Shown piece after piece: positions 43,968-64,000 of a stretch of 64,000 bases of DNA. This DNA comes from Lachnospiraceae bacterium (lineage in GTDB: Bacteria; Bacillota; Clostridia; Lachnospirales; Lachnospiraceae), in NCBI GenBank assembly GCA_011959105.1, contig BLLU01000264.1, positions 1 to 64,000 of the forward strand, read 5' to 3'. Numbering within the stretch: position 1 is the stretch's first letter; every line of letters starts with the position of its first letter. The translations under genes were made by a program, and so were the position numbers. Under the pieces are notes generated by a model, which was given only the letters and a program-made list of their open reading frames with translations, was not told the DNA's origin and did no database searches.

Positions 43968-43982
43968 GAGAGGAAAAGGCAA

Positions 43983-47600: not shown

Positions 47601-47820
47601 CTATGGCAACAGCGTGAGGCTCATGCTGCTGGACGAGGCCTTTGACAAAATGGATGACGAGAGGATACAGTCTATGATGGACTTTTTCAATGGACTGGAT
47701 CTGCAGGTGATTCTGGCAACCCCTCCGGCCAAGATTGAAGTCATCGGCGAGAAAGTGGGAACCATCCTCACGGCCATCCGGGTGGGGCAGAACAGCATTG
47801 TGGAGGAATATGACCTGTGA
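44581..47820 (+). CDS. jetC: Wadjet SMC-like ATPase JetC (MksB-like)
   Basis: The 1079-residue ATPase has Walker A SGENTAGKST (K40, S41) near the N-terminus. Two long coiled-coil arms (about 250-420 and 650-850) flank a hinge-like central domain (about 450-620). The C-terminal head has signature-like GSETQVPYYVAIAASF and Walker B LMLLDEAFDKMDDERIQ. It is of the SbcC/MukB type. I chose ATG 44581, which has GGAGG eight bases upstream, over ATG 44563. In Wadjet, JetC powers loop extrusion and delivers JetD to plasmids. The antisense strand has a long ORF across this gene, which is a shadow. Confidence 0.92.
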   Translation: MENQKKILTRVQLINWHYFENERVSFHGSTLVSGENTAGKSTILDAIQLVLTTNTRRFNVAANERGNRSLKGYVRCKVGNVGETYLRKNAVPANVALEFYEEKGDRYFVLGVHMLSPDEESQVTTRWYVEECRLEDLSFRVEGRAALAEEFRVKGRKLSYIEQKNAARDRFKRRLGNLDDKFFDIIPKSLAFKPMDNVKEFINKFVLSEERVDVVSLRENIETLSELEGILERSRRQQGALEEILGKYGEIEEKERGILVNDLLLKIAGRDAAGLEVENLEKDIRVKRQSVESNRELTEELGKRLRTLEEQILAIHVDRQSNQSSRLLEKAQSRIGELENDIREKQEEEKRLKEQLGHLLTYLRDLAKLDYRPVSRPEAELLGKAAEQPEGAPLQEEKARIVEKLEAFTGKEQKEIEENWAVLTAEMKQISQEITDCQELLKKLEKRLLPYPEYAVRLKGLVEKEFSRRGIRSNVYFLSELLEITDPVWSNAVEGYLHTQKFYLVVEPEHYEAALEVYARHLKNIHTAGIINSRRLPGEQEVNRDSLAYVVKSENRYAKAYANYILNRVTRCTDIHDLEKHSIAITPDCMLYQGYVVRHLNPRDYENPFIGQYAYRVQIQNVKKDIEEKTLRRSALREKSNLYGDVRESARKVNLELLHLYMYAPDRLEEYRRQMAQARAELKEAERDPTLIELNMKLEEKEKQRDTLAEEKERLIKESIRLDNLIEMSQEKMAEKRKLHESLREELERLADTEGMAYGDAWEKYLQNRKSKSAREISQNFVASGAKLMKDKEELVNGKGGLLALQTRFNQAFALDFLTGQGAVSEYREALQKLRGVEIVRYEEKLKSAREDCEQIFRSDFLSKMKENIESAKNEFRSLNRALDSIYYGDDSYRFKISFDKRKEGLYHMITSENNQEGMNLWSNEFEAEYREEMADLFAKLMTRDDNGEKIVEEYTDYRSYLDYDIEIHKKDGSVQRFSDIYGEKSGSETQVPYYVAIAASFYQLYRYGNSVRLMLLDEAFDKMDDERIQSMMDFFNGLDLQVILATPPAKIEVIGEKVGTILTAIRVGQNSIVEEYDL

Positions 47821-49121
47821 CGGACAAAATGCAGAGCAAGGTGCTGGAGCATCTGCTGGACTCCTATGAAAAGAGCAAGACCTTCCAGGGGGAAAACCTG
47901 GTCAACCAGAACTTCTCGGTGAACATCGGGAAACTTTTTCCCAGATATCAGGACGATGCGGAGTATGATTATTTCTGCCAGGTCAATCAGTCCATGGAGG
48001 AACTTGGGAGCATGTCGTTGGTGACGCTGGAGTACCAGGGGCGGGGGATTTTGAAAAAAGTCCGGCTGAACCTGGAGAAGCTGGAGGACTGCTACAGGCT
48101 CCTGGGGAGAATGCCCCGCCGACAGGAGCAGCAGGAACTGACGGCATTGTGGGAGGATTTGCTGTATTGGGAGGAGGGGGCCGGGCCGGAACGGATTCTG
48201 CCTTTGCTTCGCTATATAGAAGCACAGCGTGTCAGGGTCAGGAAAAATCAGAATGTGGAGTATTATGGCCACGATCTGGTGGAGTACCGGGATCTGCTTA
48301 CGGCGGCCAGGGCAGTTCTGGAGAACCGGGAGGAAGTATTTGTCCGCAATTTTTCCATACAACTGTTCCACGATTCCAAAAGGCTGGAGCTGTTGGCGCC
48401 CAGGCTGGAAGCCCTGCTGTACCAGTATGGGGAGTTCCAGGAGAGAGGAAATGTGTTGGAGGAATGCGGTGTGGTCCATACCCCCACCTATGTGATGATG
48501 AAGGGCAATGGGGGGCTGAGGCTGGGAGATTGCGGGCAGGGCAGACGCCCGGGAGGGCGGGAGTCGGAACCTGCCCAGAAGATTGATCTGTCCGGGCTGA
48601 AGGGAGATCTGGCATTGTCAACAGAGTCTCTTCGAAGTATCACGGAACTGACGGTATGGGGCGGGCGCGTGGTCACGGTGGAGAATCTTACCAGCTTCCA
48701 CGACTATCCTGCCGGGGAAGACTTCGTGGTCTATCTGGGGGGCTTTCACAATAAGGTGAAGCGGGATTTTCTGGCGGAGCTGTATCGGCAGAATCCCACG
48801 AAAGAATACCGGCATTTCGGAGACCTGGACGCCGGGGGTTTTTATATACTGGAGCATTTGAAGCGGAAGACGGGGATTGGCTTCCGCTCCCTGTATATGG
48901 ACGTGGCCACGCTGCGCCGGTATGAAAAGGACCAGAGGCCCCTCACCGAGAATGACAGGAAGCGCCTGCAGCAGCTTTGGCAGATGCTGCAGGACCAGAA
49001 AGAACGGGGAGAGTGCCTGGAGGACTATGGGGAAGTGATAGCCTATATGCTGGACAGGGGATGTAAGCTGGAGCAGGAGGCGGTGAGACTGGGCGGCTTG
49101 GAACGGGAGGAAGATTTGTGA
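47817..49121 (+). CDS. jetD: Wadjet nuclease JetD (DUF2220, TOPRIM fold)
   Basis: The 434-residue protein has a winged-helix N-terminal region (about 1-120) and a C-terminal TOPRIM-type catalytic domain. E289 lies in VVTVENLTSF and the DxD pair D336/D338 in HFGDLDAGGFY. These are the metal-binding residues of a topoisomerase-like nuclease that cuts plasmid DNA once the SMC complex has extruded it. GTG 47817 overlaps the JetC stop (GTGA), giving tight coupling. A proline-glycine-rich segment at 230-255 could be a flexible linker. The operon ends in a strong terminator at 49251. Confidence 0.92.
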   Translation: MTDKMQSKVLEHLLDSYEKSKTFQGENLVNQNFSVNIGKLFPRYQDDAEYDYFCQVNQSMEELGSMSLVTLEYQGRGILKKVRLNLEKLEDCYRLLGRMPRRQEQQELTALWEDLLYWEEGAGPERILPLLRYIEAQRVRVRKNQNVEYYGHDLVEYRDLLTAARAVLENREEVFVRNFSIQLFHDSKRLELLAPRLEALLYQYGEFQERGNVLEECGVVHTPTYVMMKGNGGLRLGDCGQGRRPGGRESEPAQKIDLSGLKGDLALSTESLRSITELTVWGGRVVTVENLTSFHDYPAGEDFVVYLGGFHNKVKRDFLAELYRQNPTKEYRHFGDLDAGGFYILEHLKRKTGIGFRSLYMDVATLRRYEKDQRPLTENDRKRLQQLWQMLQDQKERGECLEDYGEVIAYMLDRGCKLEQEAVRLGGLEREEDL

Positions 49122-49299: not shown

Positions 49300-50268
49300 T
49301 TACTTTATCCAGTCTTTTGTATACTCCACAATTTGTTCCAGATATTCAAAGTGCAGATAATGGCTGCCATCCAGACGGATGACTTCTCCTTTGCCGTTTT
49401 CAGGCAGCACATCCCAGTGCAGTTGCTCCCAGGAGGACAAGAGTTCGCAGTTGCTGCTGGCCACGAACAATAAAACATCGGCTTGATCGGGAAATTTCAT
49501 GCCCCTTGTGGTTTCCACATTGGCGTCCAGATGCTTTAACTCGTTCATGACGGTGCCGTTGTAGGCATTGTCCACAGACAGAATCCGATAAGTCTCCAAT
49601 TCCTTTTCCGTATAGGGATAGGTGGTGTCCGCATAGATGGCGTTGCGGGGATCACCTATGGAGGTAAGCCGGGCAAGACCCACTCCGTTCATGGCTTTCG
49701 TCAGGTAAGCGGATAGCCCGTTGAGGGCCGTCATGCTGATGGGAAGAGGCTGCTCATCATTCATACCGGGTACGGAAGGGTCTATGCCCACAAAGCCCCT
49801 GACCTCTTCCGGGTACTGATTGGCCCAGTAGAGAGAATACAGTCCCCCGATGGAATGTCCCATCAGGTAATACTCCTCATATCCCAGCGTCTCTACACAG
49901 GTATGTAGTTCCTGTACAATTTTGTCAATGGTGCGGTCCTGGTCCGTCTGATCAGACAGCCCATAGCCGAAGGGCTCTATTGTTACCACGCAGTAGTCCT
50001 GAGAAAGGGCAACGGCCAGGGGCTCCAATTCCAACACGGGGGAGGCACAGCCGTATCCCGACAGCAGTATAATCACCGGATTGGCCTGATCTCCCTTTAT
50101 GTCCACCCGCATGCTCTTACCGTCCACCGTTACCGCCTGTCCGTAGGCGTCCTGCAGTTTGGGCCTGGCCAAAAGCCTGCACACGGCATTGACGATTATT
50201 CCGAGAAGGATGACCGCTGCCAGCAGGATCAATAGCCACTTTAGTACTTTTCTGATCTTTCGCCACAT
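49300..50268 (-). CDS. Alpha/beta-hydrolase with N-terminal membrane anchor
   Basis: The 322-residue protein has one N-terminal helix (about 8-30). The fold follows with VIILLSGYGCASPV, the nucleophile serine in LMGHSIGGLYSLYWA, and a C-terminal SHYLHFEYLEQIV histidine. The catalytic set is Ser-Asp-His. ATG 50268 has AAAGGAGG upstream; the in-frame start at 50295 is less favourable. It looks like a surface-tethered lipase or esterase of the proline iminopeptidase/haloperoxidase style. It lies between the two defence operons and points away from the second; no link with either is evident. GC-rich composition is like the block to its left. Confidence 0.88.
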   Translation of the reverse strand: MWRKIRKVLKWLLILLAAVILLGIIVNAVCRLLARPKLQDAYGQAVTVDGKSMRVDIKGDQANPVIILLSGYGCASPVLELEPLAVALSQDYCVVTIEPFGYGLSDQTDQDRTIDKIVQELHTCVETLGYEEYYLMGHSIGGLYSLYWANQYPEEVRGFVGIDPSVPGMNDEQPLPISMTALNGLSAYLTKAMNGVGLARLTSIGDPRNAIYADTTYPYTEKELETYRILSVDNAYNGTVMNELKHLDANVETTRGMKFPDQADVLLFVASSNCELLSSWEQLHWDVLPENGKGEVIRLDGSHYLHFEYLEQIVEYTKDWIK

Positions 50269-50539
50269 GTTAAATTCCTCCTTTGATATAGGCATAGTAT
50301 ATCACATAACGTGTAGTGAGATGTTATTGTGATTTGTATTATCTAAGGCATTATAATATATGTTTTGAGGGTTTGCAAGAGGGGATTTTGGAGAGATCAG
50401 ATCTTATTTCTTGTATAGTGTAATATACTACCGGTTTTTAGGATATGGGGACTAGTTCTATGATGAGGCTAAGAGAACATGTAAATGAATATTAGCAAAG
50501 TTAAAATTTTTCAATTTGCGATAGACGTCCAAGTACGTA

Positions 50540-50568
50540 TTGACTATATGCCGTAAAAGCGATACAAT
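50540..50568 (+). promoter_or_regulatory. Promoter for the candidate defence operon
   Basis: TTGACT (50540-50545), a 17-base spacer and TACAAT (50563-50568) give a near-consensus sigma-A promoter. The first gene starts 225 bases downstream, leaving a long leader. The region 50269-50539 is AT-rich; no gene or other signal was recognised there. Confidence 0.6.
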
Positions 50569-50702
50569 ACACTAAAAGAACAAAATGGATATAGTTTGAG
50601 AATGTAGGTGATATAGAGTTATAAAAATGCTTAGATTAATTATACATTTTAGTTTAGGAATGTTAAAACATGGAGCTTTGGAGTGACGCTTAATAATTTG
50701 TA

Positions 50703-50761
50703 TTTGAGGTAATCTGCGGATTAGGATACCAAATGCAAATATGGTTATTATAAACCTCAAA
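50703..50761 (+). promoter_or_regulatory. Possible structured leader RNA
   Basis: TTTGAGGT (50703-50710) pairs perfectly with ACCTCAAA (50754-50761), enclosing two short arms (AATC TGCG GATT, and ACCA...TGGT). This three-branch layout ends 33 bases before the ATG of the first operon gene. It could be a regulatory leader or a chance fold in AT-rich DNA; no known riboswitch matches. Confidence 0.3.
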
Positions 50762-50793
50762 GAACTAACAGTAGATAAGGGGATAAAGAAAAT

Positions 50794-52110
50794 ATGGAAC
50801 GAGTAGTGAAGGCAAATCCAACCAAAGAATTTTTTGTAAATATGTTGGTTCGGGATATTTTGTTAAAGCAAGCGATTATTGAATTGATTGACAACAGCAT
50901 TGATGGAGCAAGGAGTATTAGGGAAAATAATGAATATAAAGGTTTGGAGATAGTTGTAAAATTTAATGGCGAGAGATTTGAAATAGAAGATAATTGTGGT
51001 GGCATTCCAGTAGATGTCGCGGCAAATTATGCATTTAGATTTGGAAGGCCCAAGAGCGTCCAAAGTAGTAATACTGAAACTACAGGCATATTTGGAATAG
51101 GCATGAAAAGGGCTTTATTTAAGATAGGAAAAAATTTTGCAATTCATTCAACTACGAGAACATCTGAATTTGATTTAGAACTTGATGTAGAAAATTGGTT
51201 ATCTAAAGAAGATTGGGATTTTGAGTTTGCCTCATATAAGGAAAATATAAATAATGAAGGAGTAAAAACAGGAACAAAAATAGTAGTTACTAATTTAAAT
51301 GAAGATATTGCTGGAGAATTATGCAGTCAGGAATTTGAGACGGAACTGATTGAACATGTTCAGCGTAGAGTTGGGTTAGATATTGCATATGGAATAGCGA
51401 TTACCGTAAATGAAAAAACGTTGATTGGAAATAATATTTCTTTAATTAATAATGAAGAGGGAATTAAAGTAGTTAAAGAAGACTATGATGATGACGGAGT
51501 CAATGTTCAAATATTGGGAGGAATAGCACCGCGGGAGGGAAAAAATTATCCACCTGAGAAAGCGGGATGGTATATCTATTGTAATGGGAGATTGGTAGTT
51601 GCGGCAGATAAATCCTCTCTTACGACCTGGAAAGATATGGAGAATAAAAGCAGCGGCGTTGTCTTTCACAATAACTATGCCGGATTTAGAGGTATTGTGT
51701 ACTTTTCCTCCAAACAACCGGAGAAACTGCCGTGGAATACTACTAAAACAGGGCTTGATGAAACATCCCGAGTATATTTGCGGGCACGGGAGAAGATGCT
51801 CGAAATATTTAAGATTGTGAAGGGAATTATTGATGAAATCAAGAAAAATACGGAAGAAAAGGACGATGGAGTAGAAGAATCTGTTGCAAAGATGCAGGGA
51901 ATGGAGATGACGGTATCAGAGATTAAGAAAGTAGTCAAAAACAGGGAAATGGCGATAAAAAGCATCAAAATTACAACGGAGCCTAATGTTACTATTAGTT
52001 ATAAAAAACCTAAAAAAGATGCAGATGAGCTAAAAGGAGTTTTAGGCGTAAAATCCTATAAAGAAGTCGGAGAAAAAACCTTTGAATACTATAAAGATGC
52101 GGAGTGTTAA
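50794..52110 (+). CDS. GHKL (MORC/Hsp90-like) ATPase of candidate defence operon
   Basis: The 438-residue protein has a GHKL ATP-binding fold: N-box E30 and N34 in ELIDNSIDGA, G1 box EDNCGGI (65-71) and G2 loop GIFGIGMKRALF (98-109). A transducer-like domain (190-340) follows. The C-terminal third is a charged coiled coil with KKNTEEKDDG and ends FEYYKDAEC. Such ATPases dimerise on ATP and often act as switches in anti-phage systems (MORC, sacsin-like). It has a weak AAGGGG upstream, and the next gene starts three bases after it. It is the first of six genes in one direction. No nuclease motif is visible in it. Confidence 0.82.
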   Translation: MERVVKANPTKEFFVNMLVRDILLKQAIIELIDNSIDGARSIRENNEYKGLEIVVKFNGERFEIEDNCGGIPVDVAANYAFRFGRPKSVQSSNTETTGIFGIGMKRALFKIGKNFAIHSTTRTSEFDLELDVENWLSKEDWDFEFASYKENINNEGVKTGTKIVVTNLNEDIAGELCSQEFETELIEHVQRRVGLDIAYGIAITVNEKTLIGNNISLINNEEGIKVVKEDYDDDGVNVQILGGIAPREGKNYPPEKAGWYIYCNGRLVVAADKSSLTTWKDMENKSSGVVFHNNYAGFRGIVYFSSKQPEKLPWNTTKTGLDETSRVYLRAREKMLEIFKIVKGIIDEIKKNTEEKDDGVEESVAKMQGMEMTVSEIKKVVKNREMAIKSIKITTEPNVTISYKKPKKDADELKGVLGVKSYKEVGEKTFEYYKDAEC

Positions 52111-52113
52111 GAT

Positions 52114-53079
52114 ATGCCAGGGAGTGACCAAAAAATAAATTATCAATATCGTCCAGCAAAAGCAATCGAGAGAAAAATGCTGTGCGATTTGATCAGGGAG
52201 ATACAATTGATCAGAGCGGATGGAGAAATGAGATATATTGGCTTGGGAGCCAAGTACTTTACCGATTTTCTTTTGCTCCATAATGAGTTTGGTATTACAG
52301 ATATGATTAGCATTGAAGCCCAAAAAGAACGGCAAGTGCGCTATGATTTTAATAAACCCCTCAAGTGTATTCAAATGTGGTATGGTACAACAAACGAAAT
52401 TTTGCCACAGATTTCTGGATTTGACCAGAAAATGAATTTAATATGGCTTGATTTTGACGATGCCTTTGGAGAGTCAATGCTTTATGATCTGCAAACTATT
52501 TGCAGAAATATCAATATAGGAAGTATGTTTTTTATTTCTTGTAATCACTCATACAGGGGGGAGAAGCAGTCTGAAAAAAGGGAGTCATTTAGGGAGAGCA
52601 CAGGTATTTTCTTTGACGAGAATATTAAGAATGGGGATTATACAAACAAAAAGATGCCATATGTCATAAAGAAGATTATCGACGATCAGATCCGAAGGAT
52701 AATTGATCTCAGAAACAGAACAGAAAAAGGTACAACAGTCGAATATATGCAGCTATTGTTTTTAACATATCAGGATGGAGCCCCGATGATGACAATAGGT
52801 GGAATTTTGGTTGATGATGAATTGAAAAACAAGATCAATGAAAGCAAAATAGTTGATAAGTATACATTTATATCTGATGGTGAAAATGTATTTTCAATTG
52901 ATATACCGTGTTTGACAAATAAAGAAATTCAATTAATTCTAAAAAATTTGCCTATTTCCAAGGAGGAATTTCAGGAACATGAGGAAGATTTTTATGGAAT
53001 AGAATATGAAGAAATATGCAAGTTTGAAAAAATTTACAGATATTATCCTTATTACTCAGAAGGGGTGTTTACTACATAG
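52114..53079 (+). CDS. Methyltransferase-like protein of candidate defence operon
   Basis: The 321-residue protein has the YRPAKAIERKMLCDLI start and a Rossmann-like segment MRYIGLGAKYFTDFLLLHNE. An acidic strand end DMISIEAQKERQVRYDF and LIWLDFDDAF follow. I recall homologues annotated as O-methyltransferase that lie next to ATP-binding or helicase genes. The SAM-binding glycine loop (GLGAKYF) is present, but the DPPY/NPPF-type catalytic motif of DNA methyltransferases is not. It may modify protein or nucleic acid, or have lost catalysis. It starts three bases after the GHKL gene and ends 60 bases before the helicase. Function is inferred from context. Confidence 0.6.
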   Translation: MPGSDQKINYQYRPAKAIERKMLCDLIREIQLIRADGEMRYIGLGAKYFTDFLLLHNEFGITDMISIEAQKERQVRYDFNKPLKCIQMWYGTTNEILPQISGFDQKMNLIWLDFDDAFGESMLYDLQTICRNINIGSMFFISCNHSYRGEKQSEKRESFRESTGIFFDENIKNGDYTNKKMPYVIKKIIDDQIRRIIDLRNRTEKGTTVEYMQLLFLTYQDGAPMMTIGGILVDDELKNKINESKIVDKYTFISDGENVFSIDIPCLTNKEIQLILKNLPISKEEFQEHEEDFYGIEYEEICKFEKIYRYYPYYSEGVFTT

Positions 53080-53139
53080 CAAGTCTGTTACTTTAATGAA
53101 AGTATTTTATAGACAAGTAGATAAACGAGGAAATGTACT

Positions 53140-56100
53140 ATGGCTAAAATGATAGATAATGAACCCATATATTCAGGTGAGAAAAAAGTCTGGAAAATGT
53201 TTTATAATAATCTTCCACAACATTTTGTCGTATATAATACTCGCTCAATAAAAGGCTGGGAATTTGATTTTTGCATTATGGCGGAAGGAATGGGGCTATT
53301 TGTTATTGAGGTAAAGGGTTGGAAAGCGGAGACAGTTTTTAATGTTATAAACGAAGATACAATCATTCTAGCCGGTGAGGAAAAGCCATGTTCCAGTCCC
53401 AGAAAGCAGGCTCGGGGATACCGTTTTAGCATGGTCAATATGTTTCGGCAAACGTTGGGAATCAATCCGCTGGTCATGGATCTTGTTTGCTATCCCTTTA
53501 TTACTAAAAAAGAGTATTATGAAAAAAGATTGGATATTATATCGGATGAGGCAGAAACTATTTTTTCAGAAGATTTAGAAAATGTATCCCTGCTGACTCA
53601 AAAACTTACCGCAAGGTATAATATCAATAAAGGTACGCCGCATGATGAGTTAAACGCAAAGCGGTTTGTACTTATCAGACATCATTTTGAGCCGAACTTT
53701 GATTTGAAGAGGAATACGGTAGAGCTGAATCCGGGATACTCAAGATTGAGGATTATCCGGCAGGAGATTAGGGATGAAGTAGTTGATGAGATTATTCAGG
53801 AGTATTTCAGCGGAATAAAGGAGATCATATTTGTCAGTTCAGGTTCATCCCTGATCAAATTGGTTGATCAGGTGGAGGCGCAGTTGGCTGCCCGAAAACT
53901 GTATCCGGAGAAGGGAGATTTAGGGGTTGGGGAGCAAAAAGGCATAAGAGGCAATATAAGTCAGGAGTATAATATTTTTAATTTTGCTGTATTTGAATTG
54001 CCGGAACTAGTTGGTATGACCGAAGAGGATGTCCTGATTGAAGAAGGTAAATATGACGAAAGGCAAAAAATTTTGCTGAAGGAACTGGCGGCTAAAACGG
54101 CATTTAATTTTCAGCAGTATGAAATAGAGCATGCCCCCGGCTACGGGAATATATTAGTTTTGGCAGGTGCAGGCACCGGAAAGACATATTCCATGGTTTC
54201 AAGAATTGCTTTTTTGTGTAACCGGTCGGCAGATGCCATAGTGAATATTGTCAGTGATATTGCCATGATCACTTTTACAAATGATGCCGCAAAAAACATG
54301 AAAAACCGGTTGAAAAAAATGTTTATGAATTATTTTGTGCTTACTTCCAATCAAAAGTATATGCACTTAATAGAAGATATGGGGCAGGTTCAGATATCTA
54401 CCATTCATAAGTTTGCAATATCCCTTTTAAAAAACGAATGTATGTGCCTGGGATTGGGGTATGATTGTCAGGTGACTAATGAGACTTATGACCGAAAGAA
54501 ATTGTACCACTTGTATTTGAATGCATATTTTGCTGAGAAAATGAAAGAAGATCCGAGTTTTGTACATCAAATGACAGCTCCATCGTATATATTGGAGGAG
54601 TTGTTGATCAATTTTTGCGATCAGTTGTATAATAAAAGCATTGATGTAAAGAGATTATCCATGGATGAATTAGATCATCCCATAGAGACGATGCCCTATT
54701 TTAATGAGTTAGTTGTAAAAGTAGTTATAAAAGCGGAAGTGGAGTATGCAAATCTTATCAAGGAAAGAAATATGCTCAGTCTGCGTGATTGCATGATTCA
54801 ACTTCATGGCATGGTAAAAGACGGAAAAATAACGGAGCATAGAAACAAATATAAGTATGTGTTTGTGGATGAATTTCAGGACACAGATGATGGGCAAATT
54901 GAAACTGTGTTGGGATTACAGAAACTGTTTGGTGAGCAGTGCAGGTTATTTGTAGTGGGAGATTTGAAACAGAGTATTTACAGGTTTAGGGGCGCAACTT
55001 TAAGTGCGTTTGATCAGGTGAGAGATAATGGGGGTGACTGGCTCTGTTTCACCTTAAACAGAAATTATCGCACAGACAGCCGACTGCTGGATCAACTGCA
55101 TTGTGTTTTTTTTGAGATGGGAAGACAGATGCGGTTGCCATATGAGGACAAGGATCATTTAACCAGTCGCATAGTGAAAAAATGTGAGGATGCTTTTTTG
55201 CTGTGTAAGATTTCTACACATAGCAAAGATAGCGGATGCTTTTATGATGATCTGTTCAATGAGTTAAAAGTACAGACGAATGCAATAATTAAATTGGGTA
55301 AGCAGAATAAACTGGGGGCTGAAGAGAAGACAATAGCCATTCTTGTGCGGTACAATTGGCAGATTTCCCAAATAGTCAAAGAGGCCGAAAAAAGAGGGAT
55401 TGTAGTCAGAACGGCGGATGGGGGAGATCTGTACAGACTTCCGTCTACGATGGATTTGTATAAGCTGGTTATGGCAGTCACTCACCCGCATAATAAAGTT
55501 TATCTGGCAAATTTAATAATGTCTAACTATGTATCCCTGAATTTGAATATGTCTCTGTTAAAGACAGGAGATTCGGATGTAAAAACGGAGGAATTGATTC
55601 GGGTACTTGATGAGTATTTTATGCTTATTCTTGGGAAAAGATGGAATCAGTTAATTGCGGAGTTTGAGTCAAAGCCAGTGCTTGTGGTATTGCGGGAGAT
55701 CTATGAGGCGACGAAACCCTGGCGGTCAGTCAGCGGAGATCAGGATATGCAATCGGCATACAGGATGAATTATGAGTGCTTGATTGAGAAAATATTGCAG
55801 AAGTATGCGCGAGAATATATGACAATCAATATGGTCAACGATTTCTTGAAAATCAATATTACGACTTATCAGGAAGAGGCATCCAGAAAGCCAGAATATG
55901 ATTCAAAGGATGTGGATGTTATATGTACAACCATCCATAAGGCAAAAGGGTTGGAGTACGGAACGGTTATGCTTCCTTATACGGGGGAGGATATTTCCGA
56001 CATAAGGGTAAAGGGATTAAGTGTCAATGTTCTTGGCGGTAAGATATACTATAGTTTCTCACAGGGGAAAAAGGTGGATTACAGCGAAGGATATGATATA

Positions 56101-56247
56101 AAGGCGGAAATGTATGAAAAGGAATGTGAAGAAACAAGGATTTTATACGTGGCGTTGACAAGAGCGATTCGGAATATTGTGTGGTTTGAAGACTTGGACA
56201 GTGAAGTACAAACGAGCTGGGGCAACTTTTTGGAGGTTGTTGGATAA
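53140..56247 (+). CDS. NERD-nuclease/UvrD-type helicase fusion
   Basis: The 1035-residue protein has an N-terminal NERD nuclease-like domain (EFDF at 41-44, VIEVKGW with E57 and K59). A superfamily 1 helicase follows: Walker A LAGAGTGKT (K348), Walker B YVFVDEFQD (D577, E578) and motif III-like GDLKQSIYRFRGA. The rest comprises motif V TIHKAKGLEYGTV and motif VI LYVALTRAIRN. The helicase body matches UvrD/AddA proteins, but AddA carries its nuclease at the C-terminus and this ends about 20 residues after motif VI. It starts with GAGGAAATG and overlaps the next gene by one base. It likely unwinds and degrades DNA ends of invaders. Confidence 0.88.
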   Translation: MAKMIDNEPIYSGEKKVWKMFYNNLPQHFVVYNTRSIKGWEFDFCIMAEGMGLFVIEVKGWKAETVFNVINEDTIILAGEEKPCSSPRKQARGYRFSMVNMFRQTLGINPLVMDLVCYPFITKKEYYEKRLDIISDEAETIFSEDLENVSLLTQKLTARYNINKGTPHDELNAKRFVLIRHHFEPNFDLKRNTVELNPGYSRLRIIRQEIRDEVVDEIIQEYFSGIKEIIFVSSGSSLIKLVDQVEAQLAARKLYPEKGDLGVGEQKGIRGNISQEYNIFNFAVFELPELVGMTEEDVLIEEGKYDERQKILLKELAAKTAFNFQQYEIEHAPGYGNILVLAGAGTGKTYSMVSRIAFLCNRSADAIVNIVSDIAMITFTNDAAKNMKNRLKKMFMNYFVLTSNQKYMHLIEDMGQVQISTIHKFAISLLKNECMCLGLGYDCQVTNETYDRKKLYHLYLNAYFAEKMKEDPSFVHQMTAPSYILEELLINFCDQLYNKSIDVKRLSMDELDHPIETMPYFNELVVKVVIKAEVEYANLIKERNMLSLRDCMIQLHGMVKDGKITEHRNKYKYVFVDEFQDTDDGQIETVLGLQKLFGEQCRLFVVGDLKQSIYRFRGATLSAFDQVRDNGGDWLCFTLNRNYRTDSRLLDQLHCVFFEMGRQMRLPYEDKDHLTSRIVKKCEDAFLLCKISTHSKDSGCFYDDLFNELKVQTNAIIKLGKQNKLGAEEKTIAILVRYNWQISQIVKEAEKRGIVVRTADGGDLYRLPSTMDLYKLVMAVTHPHNKVYLANLIMSNYVSLNLNMSLLKTGDSDVKTEELIRVLDEYFMLILGKRWNQLIAEFESKPVLVVLREIYEATKPWRSVSGDQDMQSAYRMNYECLIEKILQKYAREYMTINMVNDFLKINITTYQEEASRKPEYDSKDVDVICTTIHKAKGLEYGTVMLPYTGEDISDIRVKGLSVNVLGGKIYYSFSQGKKVDYSEGYDIKAEMYEKECEETRILYVALTRAIRNIVWFEDLDSEVQTSWGNFLEVVG

Positions 56248-58937
56248 TGGCAATAACAATTTATACATACAGTAACCCGTACAAAATTGATAAAGAGCCA
56301 TATTGGGCATCCATTCAGAACTGTTTTCATCTGTGTGTATCACAGACTTTGGCCAACGGTCTGTGTGACCAATACAGAGAATTTTTTCAGGGTAAGCTGA
56401 CCACAATTAAAAATTTTGTCAATGTTTTATATAGAAATTGGGAAAGCGATGTATTTGCGATCAGTCAAAGGGCGGTAATAGACAATGTAATTGATTATTT
56501 GGACTTTTCTCTGGTTGTGCCGGGTACGATGGAGCTTTCAGATGTTATCGGGGCTTTAAAACGCAACAGAAATTCCGTATGCGAAAGTATTCGTACAATG
56601 TTTGAACTGGGTATGGAGCCCGGTCAGATCAAAGAGTCCGAACTGACATATGAACAGCGGTGCGTAGTAGAAATATATAAAGAATTAGAACGAACAGGAA
56701 ATAAGTTTTTTGCGCTGAAAAACAATTTTACGGAAGAGGATATTGATAATGCCATATCAGAAACGATAAAGTTGACGGTGGGATCGGGAACAAAGGGGGA
56801 TATTTCTGAAATACGTGGGGATTCTATCATCATTCATGGTATTCATCAGTTTTCTCCGATTATGCTAAAAACAATAGAAGTTCTCAGCAAATATAAATTG
56901 GTTGTTATTTTATTTAATTATCAACTGGAATATAAAAGTGTGTATCAGACTTGGCTGGATGTATATTCGTTGTTTGAGAGTAAGGTTGTCATATCACCGA
57001 AGGACTTTAGTGATGACCGAGAGAGCTTTCAGGGGGGCAGGGCGGCAAATAATATTGCAGCTTTGATAGGCGGAAATACATGTTCCATTGATTTTGCGGA
57101 GAAGATAGAGGTAGTAGAATATAATAATGCGACGGAATTTGCCGGATATATCGCAAAGCTGTTTGAAGGGGCGGAAAGAGCTCGGCGGGATGAGAATTTT
57201 GCCCATCCTGCGTTATATTATATGGACGAGCAGATTTATGCGGCAAACAGTGCTGTTAATGATATTCTGAAAATTTATTTTCCAGAACAGTTTGGGGAGA
57301 GGGACTTTTTAGACTATCCGATCGGGCATTTTTTCTTTGCTATAACCAATATGTGGGACTTGGAAACGCAGTCGCTTTATATCCGGGATTTGCGGGATAT
57401 TTATGAATGTCTTTCATGTGGGATTATCACAGAGAAAGTTCCCGGCGAATGCGTTTCTATATTTGATAAGGCGAGGCTGTTTTTCTCCAGTGAAACCACC
57501 ATATCAGACATAATCAAAAAGCTCAGGCGACTAAAAAGGCAGCTCAGGGATATAAATGATGATGGGGCAGAAAGGGCAGAATGCCAGAGAATTGAGTATT
57601 TTGATCTGTCTGAAAGCGAAATTGACAAACTGATTATTGCCTTGATGGATTTGAATGGCATTGCGGAACTTTTTTATGCCGACTTCAATGATCAAAACAA
57701 TGATTTCAAAGTATTTTACGGGAAAATCCGAGAGGTGCTGGTTTCCCATGTGTTGGACGCACGGGATATTGATGACGAGTTCAAGGATATTGTGCAGCGG
57801 GTACTGCGCAGAATAGAGGAAGTTGGCAATAGCGAGGCCAATGCGTCCTTTGACTGTCTGAGAGATACAATGCAGTTATATCTTCGGCAGGTTCCGGGGG
57901 AGGGCAGGGGTGCAAAATGGATTGTGCGTAATTTTGAGCAGATTGATGGTGACATATTACGGAAAAAGTCTAACACACAAAAGAGAATACATCATTTTGC
58001 CTGTCTGTCAGATCAAGATATGAGTATCTCTCACAGGGACGAGTTCCCCTGGCCGCTGGATATAGATTTCTTTGAAGTGGCGCAGTCCCCGGTGGATTGG
58101 AAATATCAGGTGTTTGTGACATCACGGTTAGAGTATAAGAATTTCCGGCGCTATGCGTTAATTTATGGACTTGCGTTCAGCAGATGCCCGGTTAAGCTGA
58201 GTTATATAAAGAATAGAGGCGAAAATACATCGGAACTGTACTATCTTTTTAATGCGTTAAACGTAGAAATAAAGCCATATGAACCCGATGTTCCGATCGG
58301 TTATAAACAACGTGGGGAATATATAGAAATAAGGGATTATGGGATGGCCAAGTTTTCCAAGTATGATCTGATGAGATATAACTTGTGTAAATATCGTTTT
58401 TTGCTGGAGTCGATTATAGAAGAAAGAAGTGTGTACAAGGACGAGTTTTTGCTGAAAAGATATTTGAAAGTTCTGTTAGAGCATAGAGCGCGCAGGCATT
58501 TTTCCGGTAAAGTATTTGCCTCTGATATTGTTTCAGATTATCTGCGGGATCAGTTGGAGGATCTAAAACCAAAGTTTGGGTTTGTGAATTACGCGGAAAC
58601 ATGGGATATAATAAAGAGCGCGCGTGAATATCTGGAAAAGTATGCACTATATCATGGTAGGTTTGTGCAGATCAGAGAAGAACAGATGGATCATATGACT
58701 AAGCGTGAGAACTTTTTGGCTACGAAACTTGCGGGAAACCTCATGGCGCATGAGGGAGAGATTTTTAAGAACTCTACACAAGAAGAAATTGACCATACTT
58801 TAAACAAAGAAAATCTGAGCGATGAGAAATATAGGAAAGTTTTGAACAGTTTGTGCGGCAATTGCTCCGAGAAGGATATTTGTCTGGAAAGTTTTCGCTT
58901 TAAGATGAGAGAAAAGAAGGGGAATTACAATGATTAA
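56247..58937 (+). CDS. AddB-like Fe-S protein without visible nuclease core
   Basis: The 896-residue protein is of the RexB/AddB style. A helicase-like but Walker-less N-terminal region is followed by a C-terminus with C714 (in RYNLCKYRF) and C870-x2-C873-x5-C879 (CGNCSEKDIC). This spacing equals the [4Fe-4S] cluster of B. subtilis AddB as I recall it. Between the first cysteine and the last three only 155 helical residues exist, and I see no D...ExK nuclease motif. The Fe-S staple seems kept while the nuclease was lost. It partners the NERD-UvrD protein (one-base overlap) and overlaps the SNF2 gene by eight bases. A structural DNA-end-binding subunit is the most likely role. Confidence 0.72.
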   Translation: MAITIYTYSNPYKIDKEPYWASIQNCFHLCVSQTLANGLCDQYREFFQGKLTTIKNFVNVLYRNWESDVFAISQRAVIDNVIDYLDFSLVVPGTMELSDVIGALKRNRNSVCESIRTMFELGMEPGQIKESELTYEQRCVVEIYKELERTGNKFFALKNNFTEEDIDNAISETIKLTVGSGTKGDISEIRGDSIIIHGIHQFSPIMLKTIEVLSKYKLVVILFNYQLEYKSVYQTWLDVYSLFESKVVISPKDFSDDRESFQGGRAANNIAALIGGNTCSIDFAEKIEVVEYNNATEFAGYIAKLFEGAERARRDENFAHPALYYMDEQIYAANSAVNDILKIYFPEQFGERDFLDYPIGHFFFAITNMWDLETQSLYIRDLRDIYECLSCGIITEKVPGECVSIFDKARLFFSSETTISDIIKKLRRLKRQLRDINDDGAERAECQRIEYFDLSESEIDKLIIALMDLNGIAELFYADFNDQNNDFKVFYGKIREVLVSHVLDARDIDDEFKDIVQRVLRRIEEVGNSEANASFDCLRDTMQLYLRQVPGEGRGAKWIVRNFEQIDGDILRKKSNTQKRIHHFACLSDQDMSISHRDEFPWPLDIDFFEVAQSPVDWKYQVFVTSRLEYKNFRRYALIYGLAFSRCPVKLSYIKNRGENTSELYYLFNALNVEIKPYEPDVPIGYKQRGEYIEIRDYGMAKFSKYDLMRYNLCKYRFLLESIIEERSVYKDEFLLKRYLKVLLEHRARRHFSGKVFASDIVSDYLRDQLEDLKPKFGFVNYAETWDIIKSAREYLEKYALYHGRFVQIREEQMDHMTKRENFLATKLAGNLMAHEGEIFKNSTQEEIDHTLNKENLSDEKYRKVLNSLCGNCSEKDICLESFRFKMREKKGNYND

Positions 58938-61900
58938 AGCAGGAGGGTTCGTGAGATGCCCTATTGACCGGGAATATCCCCAGACTCCAAGAATGTTTGC
59001 CACGGGAAAGGTAGTCAGCGTAAATGATTTTAATGAATCGGCGCATATAGAATTTGCCGATCCCTTTGGGTACAGAAAGTTTTTTGAGTTTATTCCCACA
59101 GAGGTGGAGGAAGCGCCTTTGAGGGCATTGGAACGCTGCCATCTTTTTAAAGGTACTGTTGTGCGGTATGGAAAAAGAGTGGCTACAGTCGTGGAATATA
59201 GGCGGAATGAAAGCGGTGTTTATGAATACTATATCCAGGATAATGCCAGTAAGGAGTATATTCGTGCAGAGGAAGGGGAGCTCACTGCGTCATTCCTTTC
59301 AGGATGTGCCAATCCGGTTCACCAGTTAAAAAAGTATGAGTTTCAAAACCCGTGCTGGTATCTTGGAAGGCAGATTGTAAAAGATACCATGAACATTCTG
59401 GATAATGCGATCTGTGGGTTTAGAGAGTTGGCCGGCTGTAAAATATATTTAAAGGCGTTCCAGCTAAACACAATCATGCGGTGCGTTCAAAGTGAGAAAT
59501 GCAGATTTATGTTAGCTGACGAGGTGGGTTTGGGAAAAACCATCGAGGCATGTTCAATATTAAAAATCTTTTTGACTGACAAGGCGGAGAAAAAGATTGT
59601 TATCGTAGTTCCCCAGTCCCTGACTGCGCAGTGGAAAACGGAATTATTGTTTAAGTTTGGGATTATGGAAGGAAAAAATAAAAATGGGAATTGCGTTTCC
59701 ATATGTTCGGCGGAGGAGTTGTCCGATTGTGAATGCGGCGACAACTGGGACTTCGTAATAGTGGATGAGGTTCATAATTATCTAAAGGAAAGAACGATAT
59801 ATGAAAAAATACATAATCTGAGTGTCAATGCGGAAAATATTATCCTGTTGAGTGCCACTCCGATCCAGCAGCGAAAAGAAGAATATCTGGATCTGTTGAA
59901 ACTGATTTTACCGCAGCGGTACGACCATATGGCGGCCGATCAATTTGAGGAGTTGGTGGAGAAACAGAATAACATAGCGAGAACCGCTTATATTCTTTTG
60001 GATCAGTTGGACAGTTTTAAAAATGAATTGTTGCCGGATGTGGAAGAGGAGGATGCTCATGACAATGAGGATGTTCAAGAGGAATTGGAGGGGATCAACG
60101 AAAACCTGCGCAATTTAGCGGAAATGATAGGGGATGAAAAACTGTCGCAAATAATAGCCGGGATTGATAACGCAAAAGAAGATTTTGGCATGTACGAAGT
60201 TCAGGTTGCCATTTCATATGTCTGCGACAATTATCAGATGGAGAGGAATATTATCAGGGGACGCCGTGCTTTGCTGGGGGTGCATTCCCAGAATAAAGAG
60301 GGGGAATTTGCGGAACGAAAGTTAGAGGAAATCACATACTCTTTTGGAGAAGAAGATAACTATTACGAAAGCGAGGTATATCGCACTCTGAAGGAATGGC
60401 TGGTTTCGCAGCAGGAAACCTTGGATACTGTCAGGATTGAGAGAGAAATCCGACCGGTGCTGGAGGCCTTTTTCAGTTCTCCGTGGGCATATGTGGCCAG
60501 ACTTGAAAAGGTGTATGGAAAAAGTGCTCTACCTGATGATGTGTGGAAGAGCGCCAGCAGATGGCTTGAGGATGAGAACGAGGCCATAGAGCAGCTGGCG
60601 GACATTATGGATGATGTGCAGGTACATCCATCGCGACTGATGAAATTAATCAGTTATATAGACATACATCTATACGGGAAAAAGGTTGTGATATTCACGG
60701 ATCACGCCGAAACCTTTCATATATATTATGATGTTTTGCGGGAGGCTTTTGGTGAGGAGGTAACCGGGTTTGCGAAGTTCCTTGATCGGGAAGAGGCCGA
60801 AAAAAATATCTACAGGTTTCAGTCTGAGGCGGATTGCCGCATACTCATCTGTGATCAAACAGGTGGAGAAGGCCGCAATCTTCAGATAGCGGATTATGTG
60901 GTACATATAGATTTGCCGTGGAACATCAATGTGATTGAGCAGAGAATAGGACGGTTGGACCGAATGGGACGGAATGTGGAGGTGCCTGTTACTTCCGTTG
61001 TTATTCATACAACCGATAGTTATGAAGAGCAGTTGTTTGATTTCTGGAATAAGGGTTTAAATGTGTTTAAACAGTCTCTCAGCGGTCTTGAGATCATTAT
61101 GAATGATATCAATCGAAAGATTGTGGAATCTATAAAGACCGATTTTGAGTATGGGTTATATCGGTTAATCCCAGAACTGATTGAGGAGGCCGAGGGAATC
61201 AGAGAAACTGTTCGCAGAGAACAGATTTTTGATACTACAGCATTAAGATTTCGTCCCATGTATATTCAGTTGGAAAAGCTTTTGGCAGACTATCAGAGTA
61301 AAGAAAATACGATTTTTGCGGAAACAATGATGAGTTGGGCCTCTTTGGCAGGTTTTGGGAAAATTATGCAGGACAAATCCGGCCAATTGGTTTCTTTTGA
61401 CAAAACAAATTTTTCGACTCGGTCTGCGCAGAATTCTTTTCTGATCCCTCCAAATTGGAACGATTTTCTGTCCAGAAAACATAATGAGTTAATGATCCGG
61501 ATACAAAGAGGGGAAAAAAGCGGGAAAGCCGGGACGATCGCATACGGGAACGGGATTATCGCATATGAGAGTGGAGTTATAAAGGGAACCTTTGATCGGG
61601 ATATTGCCATCAAAAATGACTATATACATTTTTATGCTCCGGGTGATGAGATTTTTGACAGTATAGTGAATAATGCCCTGTGCTCCTATAGGGGAAAGTG
61701 TACGGCGTTTGCTGCGGAATCGGCGTTTGATTGGATGGGCTTTATTTATACCTATTCCATAGAGCCCAATGAACGGCTTTTGCTGGAGGAAGGTGTGGAC
61801 CTGCATATGCTTGGAATGTTCAGGCAGTATTTGGCATCGACAATTCAGGTGGTGCCGGTTGCGTTCAGCGCATACAGTGACGTACCGGAAAAGCAGGTGC

Positions 61901-62325
61901 TGTCTGAACATAGGCGAATTTCCCAGATGGGATATTTTAACAGGTCTGATACAATAGAGCATTTGGGGCGGAGGGGCAGAGAGGATGGATTTTTGAAGAT
62001 TTCAACAAAACATTGCGCCAGCAATCTCGACTGGTTCAAAGCGCAATACGATGAAGACAGATGGGAAAGGCTGGTGGATCAAAGCAGCAAAACGGCTCGG
62101 AAAAAGGCGAGGGACAGGTTTGCCATGGCATCTGATCTGGCAGGGGTCAGGGAAATGATGGAACAGATTCTTTCAACAAAAGAGTCAAGGGAAAAGTATT
62201 TTGGAGCATGCAAAGAGGAGTCTGCGGAACAACTGAAGAGACAACATTCCATTATATATGAAAGCCTGTCAAAGCCGGTTATTCGGTTGGAGTCCGCCTG
62301 TTATATGTGGTTGATTAAGAGATGA
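58930..62325 (+). CDS. SNF2-family helicase (DpdE-like)
   Basis: The 1131-residue protein has an N-terminal region of about 170 residues and then the SNF2 ATPase. Motif I is LADEVGLGKTIEA (K203), motif II IVDEVHNYL (D279-H282), motif III LSATPIQQRKEEY. A second RecA-like domain has TGGEGRNLQIADYVVHIDLPW and motif VI EQRIGRLDRMGRN. It resembles RapA/DpdE-type helicases, the latter part of 7-deazaguanine DNA defence. The C-terminal 400 residues have no known domain. The ATG overlaps the previous gene by eight bases, and its stop overlaps the next ATG. It may translocate on DNA to remodel or recognise foreign DNA; no DpdA transglycosylase gene lies in the window. Confidence 0.85.
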   Translation: MIKAGGFVRCPIDREYPQTPRMFATGKVVSVNDFNESAHIEFADPFGYRKFFEFIPTEVEEAPLRALERCHLFKGTVVRYGKRVATVVEYRRNESGVYEYYIQDNASKEYIRAEEGELTASFLSGCANPVHQLKKYEFQNPCWYLGRQIVKDTMNILDNAICGFRELAGCKIYLKAFQLNTIMRCVQSEKCRFMLADEVGLGKTIEACSILKIFLTDKAEKKIVIVVPQSLTAQWKTELLFKFGIMEGKNKNGNCVSICSAEELSDCECGDNWDFVIVDEVHNYLKERTIYEKIHNLSVNAENIILLSATPIQQRKEEYLDLLKLILPQRYDHMAADQFEELVEKQNNIARTAYILLDQLDSFKNELLPDVEEEDAHDNEDVQEELEGINENLRNLAEMIGDEKLSQIIAGIDNAKEDFGMYEVQVAISYVCDNYQMERNIIRGRRALLGVHSQNKEGEFAERKLEEITYSFGEEDNYYESEVYRTLKEWLVSQQETLDTVRIEREIRPVLEAFFSSPWAYVARLEKVYGKSALPDDVWKSASRWLEDENEAIEQLADIMDDVQVHPSRLMKLISYIDIHLYGKKVVIFTDHAETFHIYYDVLREAFGEEVTGFAKFLDREEAEKNIYRFQSEADCRILICDQTGGEGRNLQIADYVVHIDLPWNINVIEQRIGRLDRMGRNVEVPVTSVVIHTTDSYEEQLFDFWNKGLNVFKQSLSGLEIIMNDINRKIVESIKTDFEYGLYRLIPELIEEAEGIRETVRREQIFDTTALRFRPMYIQLEKLLADYQSKENTIFAETMMSWASLAGFGKIMQDKSGQLVSFDKTNFSTRSAQNSFLIPPNWNDFLSRKHNELMIRIQRGEKSGKAGTIAYGNGIIAYESGVIKGTFDRDIAIKNDYIHFYAPGDEIFDSIVNNALCSYRGKCTAFAAESAFDWMGFIYTYSIEPNERLLLEEGVDLHMLGMFRQYLASTIQVVPVAFSAYSDVPEKQVLSEHRRISQMGYFNRSDTIEHLGRRGREDGFLKISTKHCASNLDWFKAQYDEDRWERLVDQSSKTARKKARDRFAMASDLAGVREMMEQILSTKESREKYFGACKEESAEQLKRQHSIIYESLSKPVIRLESACYMWLIKR

Positions 62326-64000
62326 ACAGACAAAATATAATAGATAACTTGGAAAAGTTGATAAATGAAGAGACTGAGGAGCCTTGCTGCATAGAGGAGG
62401 AGGGCGATCAGGATGTGGTTGACGCTTTTATGAGAAATACGGTGCTGCGTCTAGTTAATACATACAGGCAGTACCGAAGTGGAGAATGCGCAGAATCTGA
62501 CTATATGGCGTCTCTTCGAAATTTCATGCTTGTGTTCCAAACGCCTTTACGGATTGAAAAAGCGGATATTTCGGAGAATAATTCTTTTGGGATTTATAAG
62601 TTGGACGATGGATTTAGGTATTACGCGGCATATGATGTCCCTAAATTTATTAAACACAGGTCTTTTGTGGAAAGTGCGTTTATTAACAGCAATACACATA
62701 CAGCGGATACCGATTTGAAGTATCTGTTAAATACAAATGAATACATACGGCGTTTAACTGGTTTTGAATCCTTTAAATCCATTGAGCAAAAGCTTTGTGT
62801 ATATGGGGCTATTAATGCTCCTGCCGGATATACCTTGCTAATCTCCATGCCTACAGGGGGCGGGAAGAGTCTGGTAACGCAGGCTGTGGGATATGAGACA
62901 AAAGGCCTCTCCATTGTGGTAGTGCCCACGGTTTCGCTTGCGATTGATCAGGAAAGAGCAGTCAGGAAAAATGTAAAGAATATAGCGGAGGGCGAAATAT
63001 TTTGCTATTACAGCGGAATCAGCAATTCCGATAAAATCCTGGAGGCAATTGAAAAGAGGACGCTTCGGCTGCTGTTTATTTCGCCGGAGGCATTGCTGAA
63101 GAATGAACAGTTTAAGCAGTCAATTCGGCAGGCTAACCGTGACAGATACATAAAGAATTTAATCATTGATGAGGCTCATATTGCAGTTGCATGGGGTGAC
63201 TATTTCCGGGTGGATTACCAGTGCCTTGGCCCCTGGAGAAATGAACTGCTGAAAGTCAACCCGGATATAAGAACATTTATGCTGTCTGCAACCTTTCGGG
63301 ACGATACAGTTATGGTATTGAAAAAAATATTTGCGGATGCCTGTAAATGGATAGAATTGAGGTGTGACTCCTTGCGCAAAGAACCCCGCTTTATTTTGGA
63401 AGTGGCGAGGGACTATTATGATAAACGCGATAAGGTGCTTGAACTGGTAAATAAACTTCCGCGGCCGATGATCCTCTACGTGGACGCCCCTTATGCCGCA
63501 GGGCAGTGGAAAGAATTTTTGGAGAGGAATGGGTATGAAAATATAAAAACTTATACCGGGGAGACAGCATCTGGGGAACGCAGGGTACTGATTGACCAGT
63601 GGGCAGAAAATCAGTTTGAACTGATGATTGCCACATCGGCGTTTGGAGTGGGTGTCGATAAGCCGGATGTCAGAACGGTGATTCATTTGTATGTTCCTCC
63701 AAGCCCTGATGCATATTACCAGGAGTTGGGGCGGGGAGGAAGAGATGGGTTGCCATGCCTAAGTGTGATGTGCATTGAGAAAGGGGATATTATCAATAAT
63801 AAAAGTGCTAAAGTGCTGACTACTGAAAAACTGTGGGGGCGGTGGTGGAGTATGTACAGAGACACTGCAAATCAATGGCAAAATGGATTGATTGCGGTTT
63901 TGACTTCTACAAAGCCTAACTATAACAGATCCCACTTTTTTGAGTCAGGCAATAGCGCGGATGAGAAATGGAATATATATGTACTGTTGCTGCTTAACAG
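62322..64000 (+). CDS. RecQ-like DEAH helicase (DpdF-like), partial at right edge
   Basis: The gene starts at ATG 62322 (ATGA overlap with the SNF2 gene) and is open to the window end, 559 codons visible. An acidic 150-residue N-terminal region is followed by MPTGGGKS (K182), DEAH (283-286), LSATF and a second RecA domain. That domain carries ATSAFGVGVDKPDVR and motif VI YYQELGRGGRDG. This is the RecQ-type superfamily 2 layout; the combination with an upstream SNF2 gene recalls DpdE-DpdF. The remainder, and whether more system genes follow, lies beyond the window. Confidence 0.82.
   Translation, partial: MNRQNIIDNLEKLINEETEEPCCIEEEGDQDVVDAFMRNTVLRLVNTYRQYRSGECAESDYMASLRNFMLVFQTPLRIEKADISENNSFGIYKLDDGFRYYAAYDVPKFIKHRSFVESAFINSNTHTADTDLKYLLNTNEYIRRLTGFESFKSIEQKLCVYGAINAPAGYTLLISMPTGGGKSLVTQAVGYETKGLSIVVVPTVSLAIDQERAVRKNVKNIAEGEIFCYYSGISNSDKILEAIEKRTLRLLFISPEALLKNEQFKQSIRQANRDRYIKNLIIDEAHIAVAWGDYFRVDYQCLGPWRNELLKVNPDIRTFMLSATFRDDTVMVLKKIFADACKWIELRCDSLRKEPRFILEVARDYYDKRDKVLELVNKLPRPMILYVDAPYAAGQWKEFLERNGYENIKTYTGETASGERRVLIDQWAENQFELMIATSAFGVGVDKPDVRTVIHLYVPPSPDAYYQELGRGGRDGLPCLSVMCIEKGDIINNKSAKVLTTEKLWGRWWSMYRDTANQWQNGLIAVLTSTKPNYNRSHFFESGNSADEKWNIYVLLLLN

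Follow-up and report, generated by a model that had tools for sequence, protein, structure and literature searches.

The DNA analysed here, called the window throughout, comprises the first 64,000 nucleotides of contig BLLU01000264.1 (forward strand) of a Lachnospiraceae bacterium (GenBank assembly GCA_011959105.1; genome size 4.6 Mb). Its right-hand end carries six co-directional genes for a GHKL ATPase, a Methyltransf_35 protein, a NERD nuclease fused to a UvrD/RecB-type helicase (NERD-UvrD), an AddB/RecC-like subunit, a DpdE-like SNF2 ATPase and a DpdF-like RecQ-type helicase, the last being cut by the window end. A first-pass annotation had put these six forward as a new defence system, and both the genes and the spacings it gave are real, being confirmed in the list of open reading frames (ORFs). 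The contig extends a further 16.5 kb, to position 80,565, and the cluster carries on along the same strand with DpdG- and DpdH-like genes and a gene at the DpdI position, followed by a set of Dnd genes (Table 1); gaps between genes range from -14 to 15 bases, with the exception of 60 bases before NERD-UvrD and 65 before DndB. We propose, with a probability of roughly 0.8, that the locus encodes a restriction-modification system based on DNA phosphorothioation (PT), in which Dnd modification genes would be joined to a Dpd-type core and to an AddAB/RecBC-like helicase-nuclease that replaces DpdJ/K.

Table 1. Features of the cluster; positions beyond 64,000 lie outside the window and follow the contig frame.
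Feature	Position	Strand	Evidence
Sigma-70-like promoter match TTGACT-17-TACAAT, possible operon start	50540..50568	+	10/12 consensus positions
GHKL ATPase, taken as accessory	50794..52110	+	profile search; boxes found that we take to be N, G1 and G2
Methyltransf_35 protein (PF20553), taken as accessory partner of the GHKL protein	52114..53079	+	316 bits
NERD nuclease fused to UvrD/RecB-type helicase	53140..56247	+	profile search, motif alignment
AddB/RecC-like subunit	56247..58937	+	structure-model matches, alignment
DpdE-like SNF2 ATPase	58930..62325	+	387 bits (cut-off 500); profile comparison E 3e-124
DpdF-like RecQ-type helicase	62322..64739 (contig frame; cut at window end, 64000)	+	441 bits (cut-off 550); E 5e-113
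DpdG-like	64743-65534 (contig frame)	+	44 bits (cut-off 80); profile comparison E 2e-24
DpdH-like P-loop ATPase	65536-68661 (contig frame)	+	310 bits (cut-off 450); E 3.7e-85
227-amino acid protein at DpdI position	68648-69331 (contig frame)	+	profile comparison E 2.4e-12
DndB	69397-70545 (contig frame)	+	403 bits (cut-off 328)
DndC	70542-72047 (contig frame)	+	TIGR03183; 601 bits (cut-off 290)
DndD	72051-74003 (contig frame)	+	TIGR03185; 461 bits (cut-off 246)
DndE	74000-74389 (contig frame)	+	TIGR03184; 110 bits (cut-off 72)
DndA-like	74386-75537 (contig frame)	+	415 bits (cut-off 480); NGSACTS loop
HNH_4 protein	75553-76725 (contig frame)	+	profile search
Methyltransferase	76713-77327 (contig frame)	+	profile search

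The modification core is represented by DndC, DndD and DndE, all over their profile cut-offs, with a DndA-like cysteine desulfurase alongside. Profile comparison points to clear homology of genes 5-8 with DpdE, DpdF, DpdG and DpdH, despite scores below the cut-offs, and together with the ORF that follows they match the gene order of four plasmid islands.

The NERD-UvrD protein keeps its nuclease motif (D..ExK) and helicase motifs in all eight members aligned (genome G591, whose DpdE is split, stood outside this alignment); the motifs of the motors and of the nuclease are conserved throughout the eight. Its partner has no N-terminal Walker A in the alignment, and no nuclease motif was recognised by eye in its C-terminus; four cysteines (C714, C870, C873 and C879) are invariant across 73 sequences. 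The predicted structure of the AddB-like protein matches AddB chains best, followed by UvrD and RecBCD chains, these matches coming from a second model that superseded those of a poor first one (pLDDT 59); its profile found no match among PDB sequences. An Acetatifactor sp. assembly (Lachnospiraceae) encodes a protein with 98% identity to the AddB-like protein. On motifs and modelled structure the two are predicted to form an AddAB/RecBC-type pair, with an active-motif SF1A helicase carrying the nuclease and an AddB/RecC-type partner. AddAB, RecBCD and AdnAB have a C-terminal RecB nuclease, whereas here an N-terminal NERD domain sits on the active helicase, and the pair is encoded in a sporadic modification cluster. 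The four ATP motors counted in the first-pass annotation reduce to three helicase/translocase motors plus an AddB-like protein lacking the N-terminal Walker A, to which the DpdH-like P-loop ATPase is added beyond the window.

In order to follow the cluster across genomes, the AddB-like alignment was scanned against one genome per species (84,980 species), which returned 37 loci. Most come from Lachnospiraceae or further Bacillota, and two records (L024 and L026) are actinobacterial. NERD-UvrD, AddB-like, DpdE, F, G and H occur in identical order and strand in 30 of the 37 loci, the other seven being partial, and DpdG and DpdH follow in every one of the 30 complete cores; the expectation that the gene order would recur elsewhere was thus borne out for the core. 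The GHKL/Methyltransf_35 pair was seen at a single locus among the 37, in five of which the stretch preceding the AddB-like gene is shorter than 4 kb, and the Methyltransf_35 family occurs in 2/299 genomes of the window's bacterial family. The recurring unit is NERD-UvrD, AddB-like and DpdE-F-G-H(-I) plus Dnd, and the GHKL/Methyltransf_35 pair is a separate accessory cassette. What stands of the original proposal is a multi-motor DNA-surveillance cluster beside Wadjet; the six genes as its unit do not. No relative of the AddB-like protein was encoded in the 72 viral stretches matching its patterns, the GHKL patterns matched no viral stretch, and a search of plasmids for the AddB-like gene gave no match.

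DndC was searched in 35 of the 37 loci (L018 and L036 were left out of this and of the DpdA search). It scored over the cut-off in 31 of the 35 genomes, and in 29 it lies on the same contig as the core at a distance of 0.7-4.7 kb, downstream and co-directional in 21, upstream in six and on the opposite strand in two. An independent view came from the DpdF profile, with which nine of 299 family genomes score 441-507 bits, none reaching the cut-off of 550; the next match, at 229 bits, and those below it were taken as ordinary RecQ-type helicases. All nine carry NERD-UvrD, AddB-like, DpdE, DpdG, DpdH and Dnd, and three of them are new relative to the AddB-based set. Two of these three, G683 and G616, encode core proteins only 24-37% identical to those of the window, and in both of them dnd lies on the other strand. 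DndC is over the cut-off in only 16/299 family genomes, and all nine fall within these 16 (hypergeometric P 2.5e-13, treating genomes as independent and ignoring relatedness). Pairwise distances of DndC and DpdH correlate moderately (Spearman 0.51 over 32 rows, reached by 0/2000 permutations; 0.43 when thinned to 23 rows, reached by 1/2000).

The seven remaining Dnd loci of the family, those without a DpdF-like gene, were read over 20-40 kb each. They hold no core gene, barring a 43-bit helicase match in G546, and other restriction partners are present instead: DndF and DndH in four, PbeA and PbeC in one with a further locus alike in ORF layout, and an Orf5/DndI-like gene in one. At the four DndF/DndH loci, dndF-G-H stand directly upstream of dndB, the place that the Dpd-like module takes in the window's cluster. 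The DndH and PbeA searches covered 33 of 39 genomes (leaving L016, L020, L026, L032, L039 and L041 aside), and DndH was found in none of the 33 genomes with a Dpd-like module, our own included, whilst it was recovered in 4/7 sister genomes used as controls; a DndFGH set elsewhere in the genome as the true partner was rejected on this count. Nor was PbeABCD recognised in the window's cluster, where the DpdF-like gene scores only 36 bits with PbeA and the DndD gene 857 bits with DndD vs 490 with PbeC. Because the module is found in Dnd genomes in 9/9 cases, the other seven have other partners and DndH is absent from all 33, the Dpd-like module seems to stand in as the PT restriction partner; in the sampled family it is also the commonest one, with 9/16 Dnd loci.

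The PT chemistry, the defence role and the division of labour proposed here are inferred from gene families. DndA-E are reported to introduce sulfur in place of an oxygen of the backbone at short motifs, and DNA lacking the sulfur to be attacked by DndFGH (PMC11662687 and PMC12707154, in the portions available). By analogy, DndA-E, with DndB, would place phosphorothioates on host DNA, and DpdE-F-G-H-I would survey DNA by means of the SNF2 translocase, the RecQ-type helicase and the DpdH ATPase. Unmarked DNA would then be passed by the Dpd core to the NERD-UvrD/AddB-like pair, which would unwind and degrade it. We favour a shielding role for PT on host DNA, as with DndFGH. A more speculative refinement, to which we give a small chance, is that PT plays the part of Chi in chemical form: as NERD-UvrD unwinds the DNA, the mark might be read by the AddB/RecC-like subunit or by the Dpd core that supplies it, which would switch the pair from degrading to releasing. 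If so, sparsely marked host DNA would survive and unmarked phage DNA would be digested end to end, which would explain how partly marked sites protect a whole genome, a puzzle of Dnd systems.

Several observations weigh against a Dnd system equipped with a Dpd-like restriction module. The DpdE- to DpdH-like genes all fall below the NCBIfam Dpd cut-offs, and the DndA-like gene is slightly under its own (415 vs 480 bits). The AddB-like gene is rare, occurring in 1/398 genomes of the phylum, the window's own, and broken copies exist, with DpdE split in L033, NERD-UvrD split in L011 and L041 decayed. Among the 35 loci searched, DndC lies elsewhere in two (on another contig in L026 and, by inference from colliding coordinates, in L032, where the match contains a stop codon) and is absent from four, namely the truncated loci L016, L020 and L039 and the decayed L041. 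Matches to the PbeA profile at E 1e-20 occur in 12/33 module-bearing genomes, the top one with 271 bits over a 290-amino acid fragment in the genome of L031 and the others with 75-205 bits; we took these to be mostly helicase cross-hits, and because of them a further PT partner is possible in some genomes. Judged on protein distances, the co-inheritance of DndC and DpdH looks real but loose, and since the correlation is only moderate the Dnd and Dpd-like halves may be exchanged. Finally, in a DpdH tree the Dnd-linked rows cluster together, yet two of them form a group with a DpdA-linked Paenibacillus protein (support 82, weak), so that the Dnd pairing may have arisen once or more than once. 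That tree held 33 Dnd-linked rows (29 of the 37 loci, after removal of eight incomplete ones, together with the window, G683, G616 and G513) and eight Dpd-type rows chosen from the 30 plasmid matches listed among 241 records, dpdA being annotated in the fetched stretch for 4/8. A phylum-wide search with DpdH returned the source genome and two matches of 17-19 bits taken as chance.

Among other explanations the strongest is that PT activates the module, following the logic of SspE and Pbe, rather than shielding DNA from it as with DndFGH, in which case loss of dnd would be harmless. Activation is what has been reported for Pbe and SspE, two published PT partners (PMC6459918 and PMC11662687, in part), and the sequence fits either mode; we hold activation possible but decidedly second to shielding, since a processive helicase-nuclease with translocases is more like DndFGH action on unmodified DNA than like a PT-stimulated nickase. 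That Dnd and a stand-alone restriction module are two unrelated systems sharing a defence island is improbable: Wadjet next door indicates that the region gathers defence genes and the DndC-DpdH distances correlate only moderately, but the 9/9 co-occurrence against a background of 16/299, the same-contig linkage in 29/35 loci in three arrangements, the absence of DndH in 33 genomes and the fact that dnd has different PT restriction genes next to it in the seven sister loci without the module all speak against it. We hold it no less improbable that an AddAB-like machine repairs breaks in PT-DNA, making this a repair or maintenance cluster. The NERD-UvrD/AddB-like pair is indeed built like AddAB/RecBC, and PT is a possible source of oxidative damage; against this stand the sporadic distribution (9/299 family genomes), the DndFGH- or Pbe-type genes that take the module's place in sister loci, and the kinship of the core to Dpd restriction genes. 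A self-contained system running from the GHKL gene to the RecQ-type gene, as tight spacing on one strand had suggested, is scarcely credible and as a stand-alone unit was rejected on gene content, given that each of the 30 complete cores continues into DpdG and DpdH, Dnd lies beside the core in 29/35 loci, and the GHKL pair is an accessory that occurs at 1/37 loci and, in G701, without the other four genes.

The PT-based restriction-modification system preferred here can be set beside known systems from two directions. With Dnd-DndFGH it shares the modification module (DndB, C, D and E over cut-off) and differs in its restriction half, made up here of NERD-UvrD, the AddB-like protein and DpdE-I. 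With Dpd (DpdA-K), whose mark is 7-deazaguanine in DNA, it shares the core; plasmid Dpd-type islands pair DpdE-I with DpdJ/K, whereas here NERD-UvrD and the AddB-like gene precede DpdE in their stead. A canonical Dpd system was rejected, as DpdA (NF041059) was found in 0/36 genomes, our own included; reading the downstream DNA, where the first-pass annotation had thought a DpdA or DrmB gene might follow, gave neither, and revealed the DpdE-H homologues and the Dnd module. The search for DpdJ and DpdK covered the cluster: no ORF of DpdJ size (~1,490 amino acids) lies within its 50.8-77.3 kb, and the PADLOC matches listed, considered for DpdJ, K and D, include no DpdK or DpdD and a DpdJ match only at E 9e-4, in gene 6, a weak one to helicase motifs. 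Comparison of the NERD-UvrD and AddB-like profiles with DpdJ, K and D gave at best E 9e-4 with a probability of 22%.

Other effectors also accompany the Dpd core. On alphaproteobacterial plasmids of Skermanella, Caulobacter and Methylobacterium (L090, L091 and L093) a DpdF-like gene and three genes arranged like DpdG-H-I are joined, on the opposite strand, by proteins of ~2,100 (AAA) and ~770 amino acids that replace DpdJ/K/D, so that this core has a different set of effectors there. On a Deinococcus taeanensis plasmid (L092) genes for a DEAD helicase, a PLD protein and a 3'-5' exonuclease come after dpdE, F and H, a further effector variant. Such varied effectors beside DpdE-I fit a platform with exchangeable effectors.

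The DndCDEA-PbeABCD and IscS-DndBCDE-DndI systems, genes of both of which occur in the sister loci, likewise combine a PT module with an alternative restriction partner, PbeA being described as a PLD-helicase and DndI as a DUF262-HNH nickase (PMC6459918 and PMC11662687, in part); as far as those descriptions go, neither has a Dpd core or an AddAB-like pair. BRIGADE, ARMADA, TALON and a BREX-related capture are hybrids in which Dpd parts or NERD nucleases are put to further use (PMC12458937 and PMC12839542, in part). In the text available, YprA-type helicases define the first three, and no such helicase was recognised in the window's cluster; nor does that text show any of the four pairing Dnd with DpdE-I. 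The first-pass annotation was right that hallmarks of DISARM, BREX and Druantia (DrmA/B, PglZ/BrxC and DruE) are missing, there being only helicase cross-hits among the PADLOC matches listed; the DpdE-like gene, for example, scores 134 bits with BrxHI and DrmD vs 255 with DpdE.

The remaining features concern the surroundings and accessories. A complete type I Wadjet operon (JetA1, JetB1, JetC1 and JetD1 by PADLOC) occupies 42582-49121 of the window, before the PT cluster, and between the two lies a minus-strand ORF at 49300-50295, alpha/beta-hydrolase-like by eye. Scans for promoters and terminators found neither clearly more often than in shuffled sequence, and matches of the 10/12 type that precede the GHKL gene are not above chance. 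DndB probably starts at 69469 rather than 69397, to judge from the lengths of its relatives; with that shift, and with an 11/12 promoter-like match at 69328-69356 (a consensus match alone, of a kind no commoner than in shuffled sequence), the dnd genes may have their own promoter. In G701, of the same family, GHKL and Methyltransf_35 homologues (74% and 73% identity) occur without core or Dnd, behind a 332-amino acid ORF that by eye resembles PAPS reductase, possibly a three-gene system of its own. The HNH_4 protein, taken like the last methyltransferase as an accessory, has weak matches to Cas9 HNH profiles, and its gene overlaps that of the methyltransferase; strong HNH_4 homologues follow dnd in 3/8 relatives inspected, two of which (2/8) have both genes. 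In L037 (6031-6852) and L028 (6004-6714), where dnd is upstream, a restriction endonuclease (Mrr_cat), with a HARE-HTH under the Pfam cut-off, stands between a dndA-like gene and NERD-UvrD and is a candidate second cutter. L041 (Selenomonas sp. FOBRC6) holds NERD-UvrD and AddB-like remnants by dndD, dndE and dndA fragments, a decayed cluster.

The first-pass view that the arrangement is undescribed agrees with full-text searches of one open-access library (supplements and most subscription papers lay outside them), in which no pairing of Dnd with DpdE-I was found. The main text of a survey of nucleases in Dnd neighbourhoods has no RecQ, UvrD, AddB or GHKL (PMC10853773), other Dpd hybrids are described in the available parts of PMC12458937 (BRIGADE) and PMC12839542 (BREX-related capture), and a survey of dpd islands that, by its accessible text, requires dpdA and dpdB would therefore miss this cluster (PMC11888242). 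The cluster adds a seemingly unreported restriction partner to DNA phosphorothioation, and it suggests a Dpd restriction core able to work with marks other than 7-deazaguanine. DpdE-I would seem to be a platform of readers and motors, serving now one mark and now another (DpdABC or Dnd) and combined with varying cutters (DpdJK or the AddAB-like pair), a view that makes the roles of DpdE-I testable by module swapping. Many PT-bearing strains are reported to be without known restriction genes (PMC7464106 and PMC11931770, in part), and the module that runs from NERD-UvrD to DpdI may be present in some of the gut Dnd strains recorded as having no restriction module.

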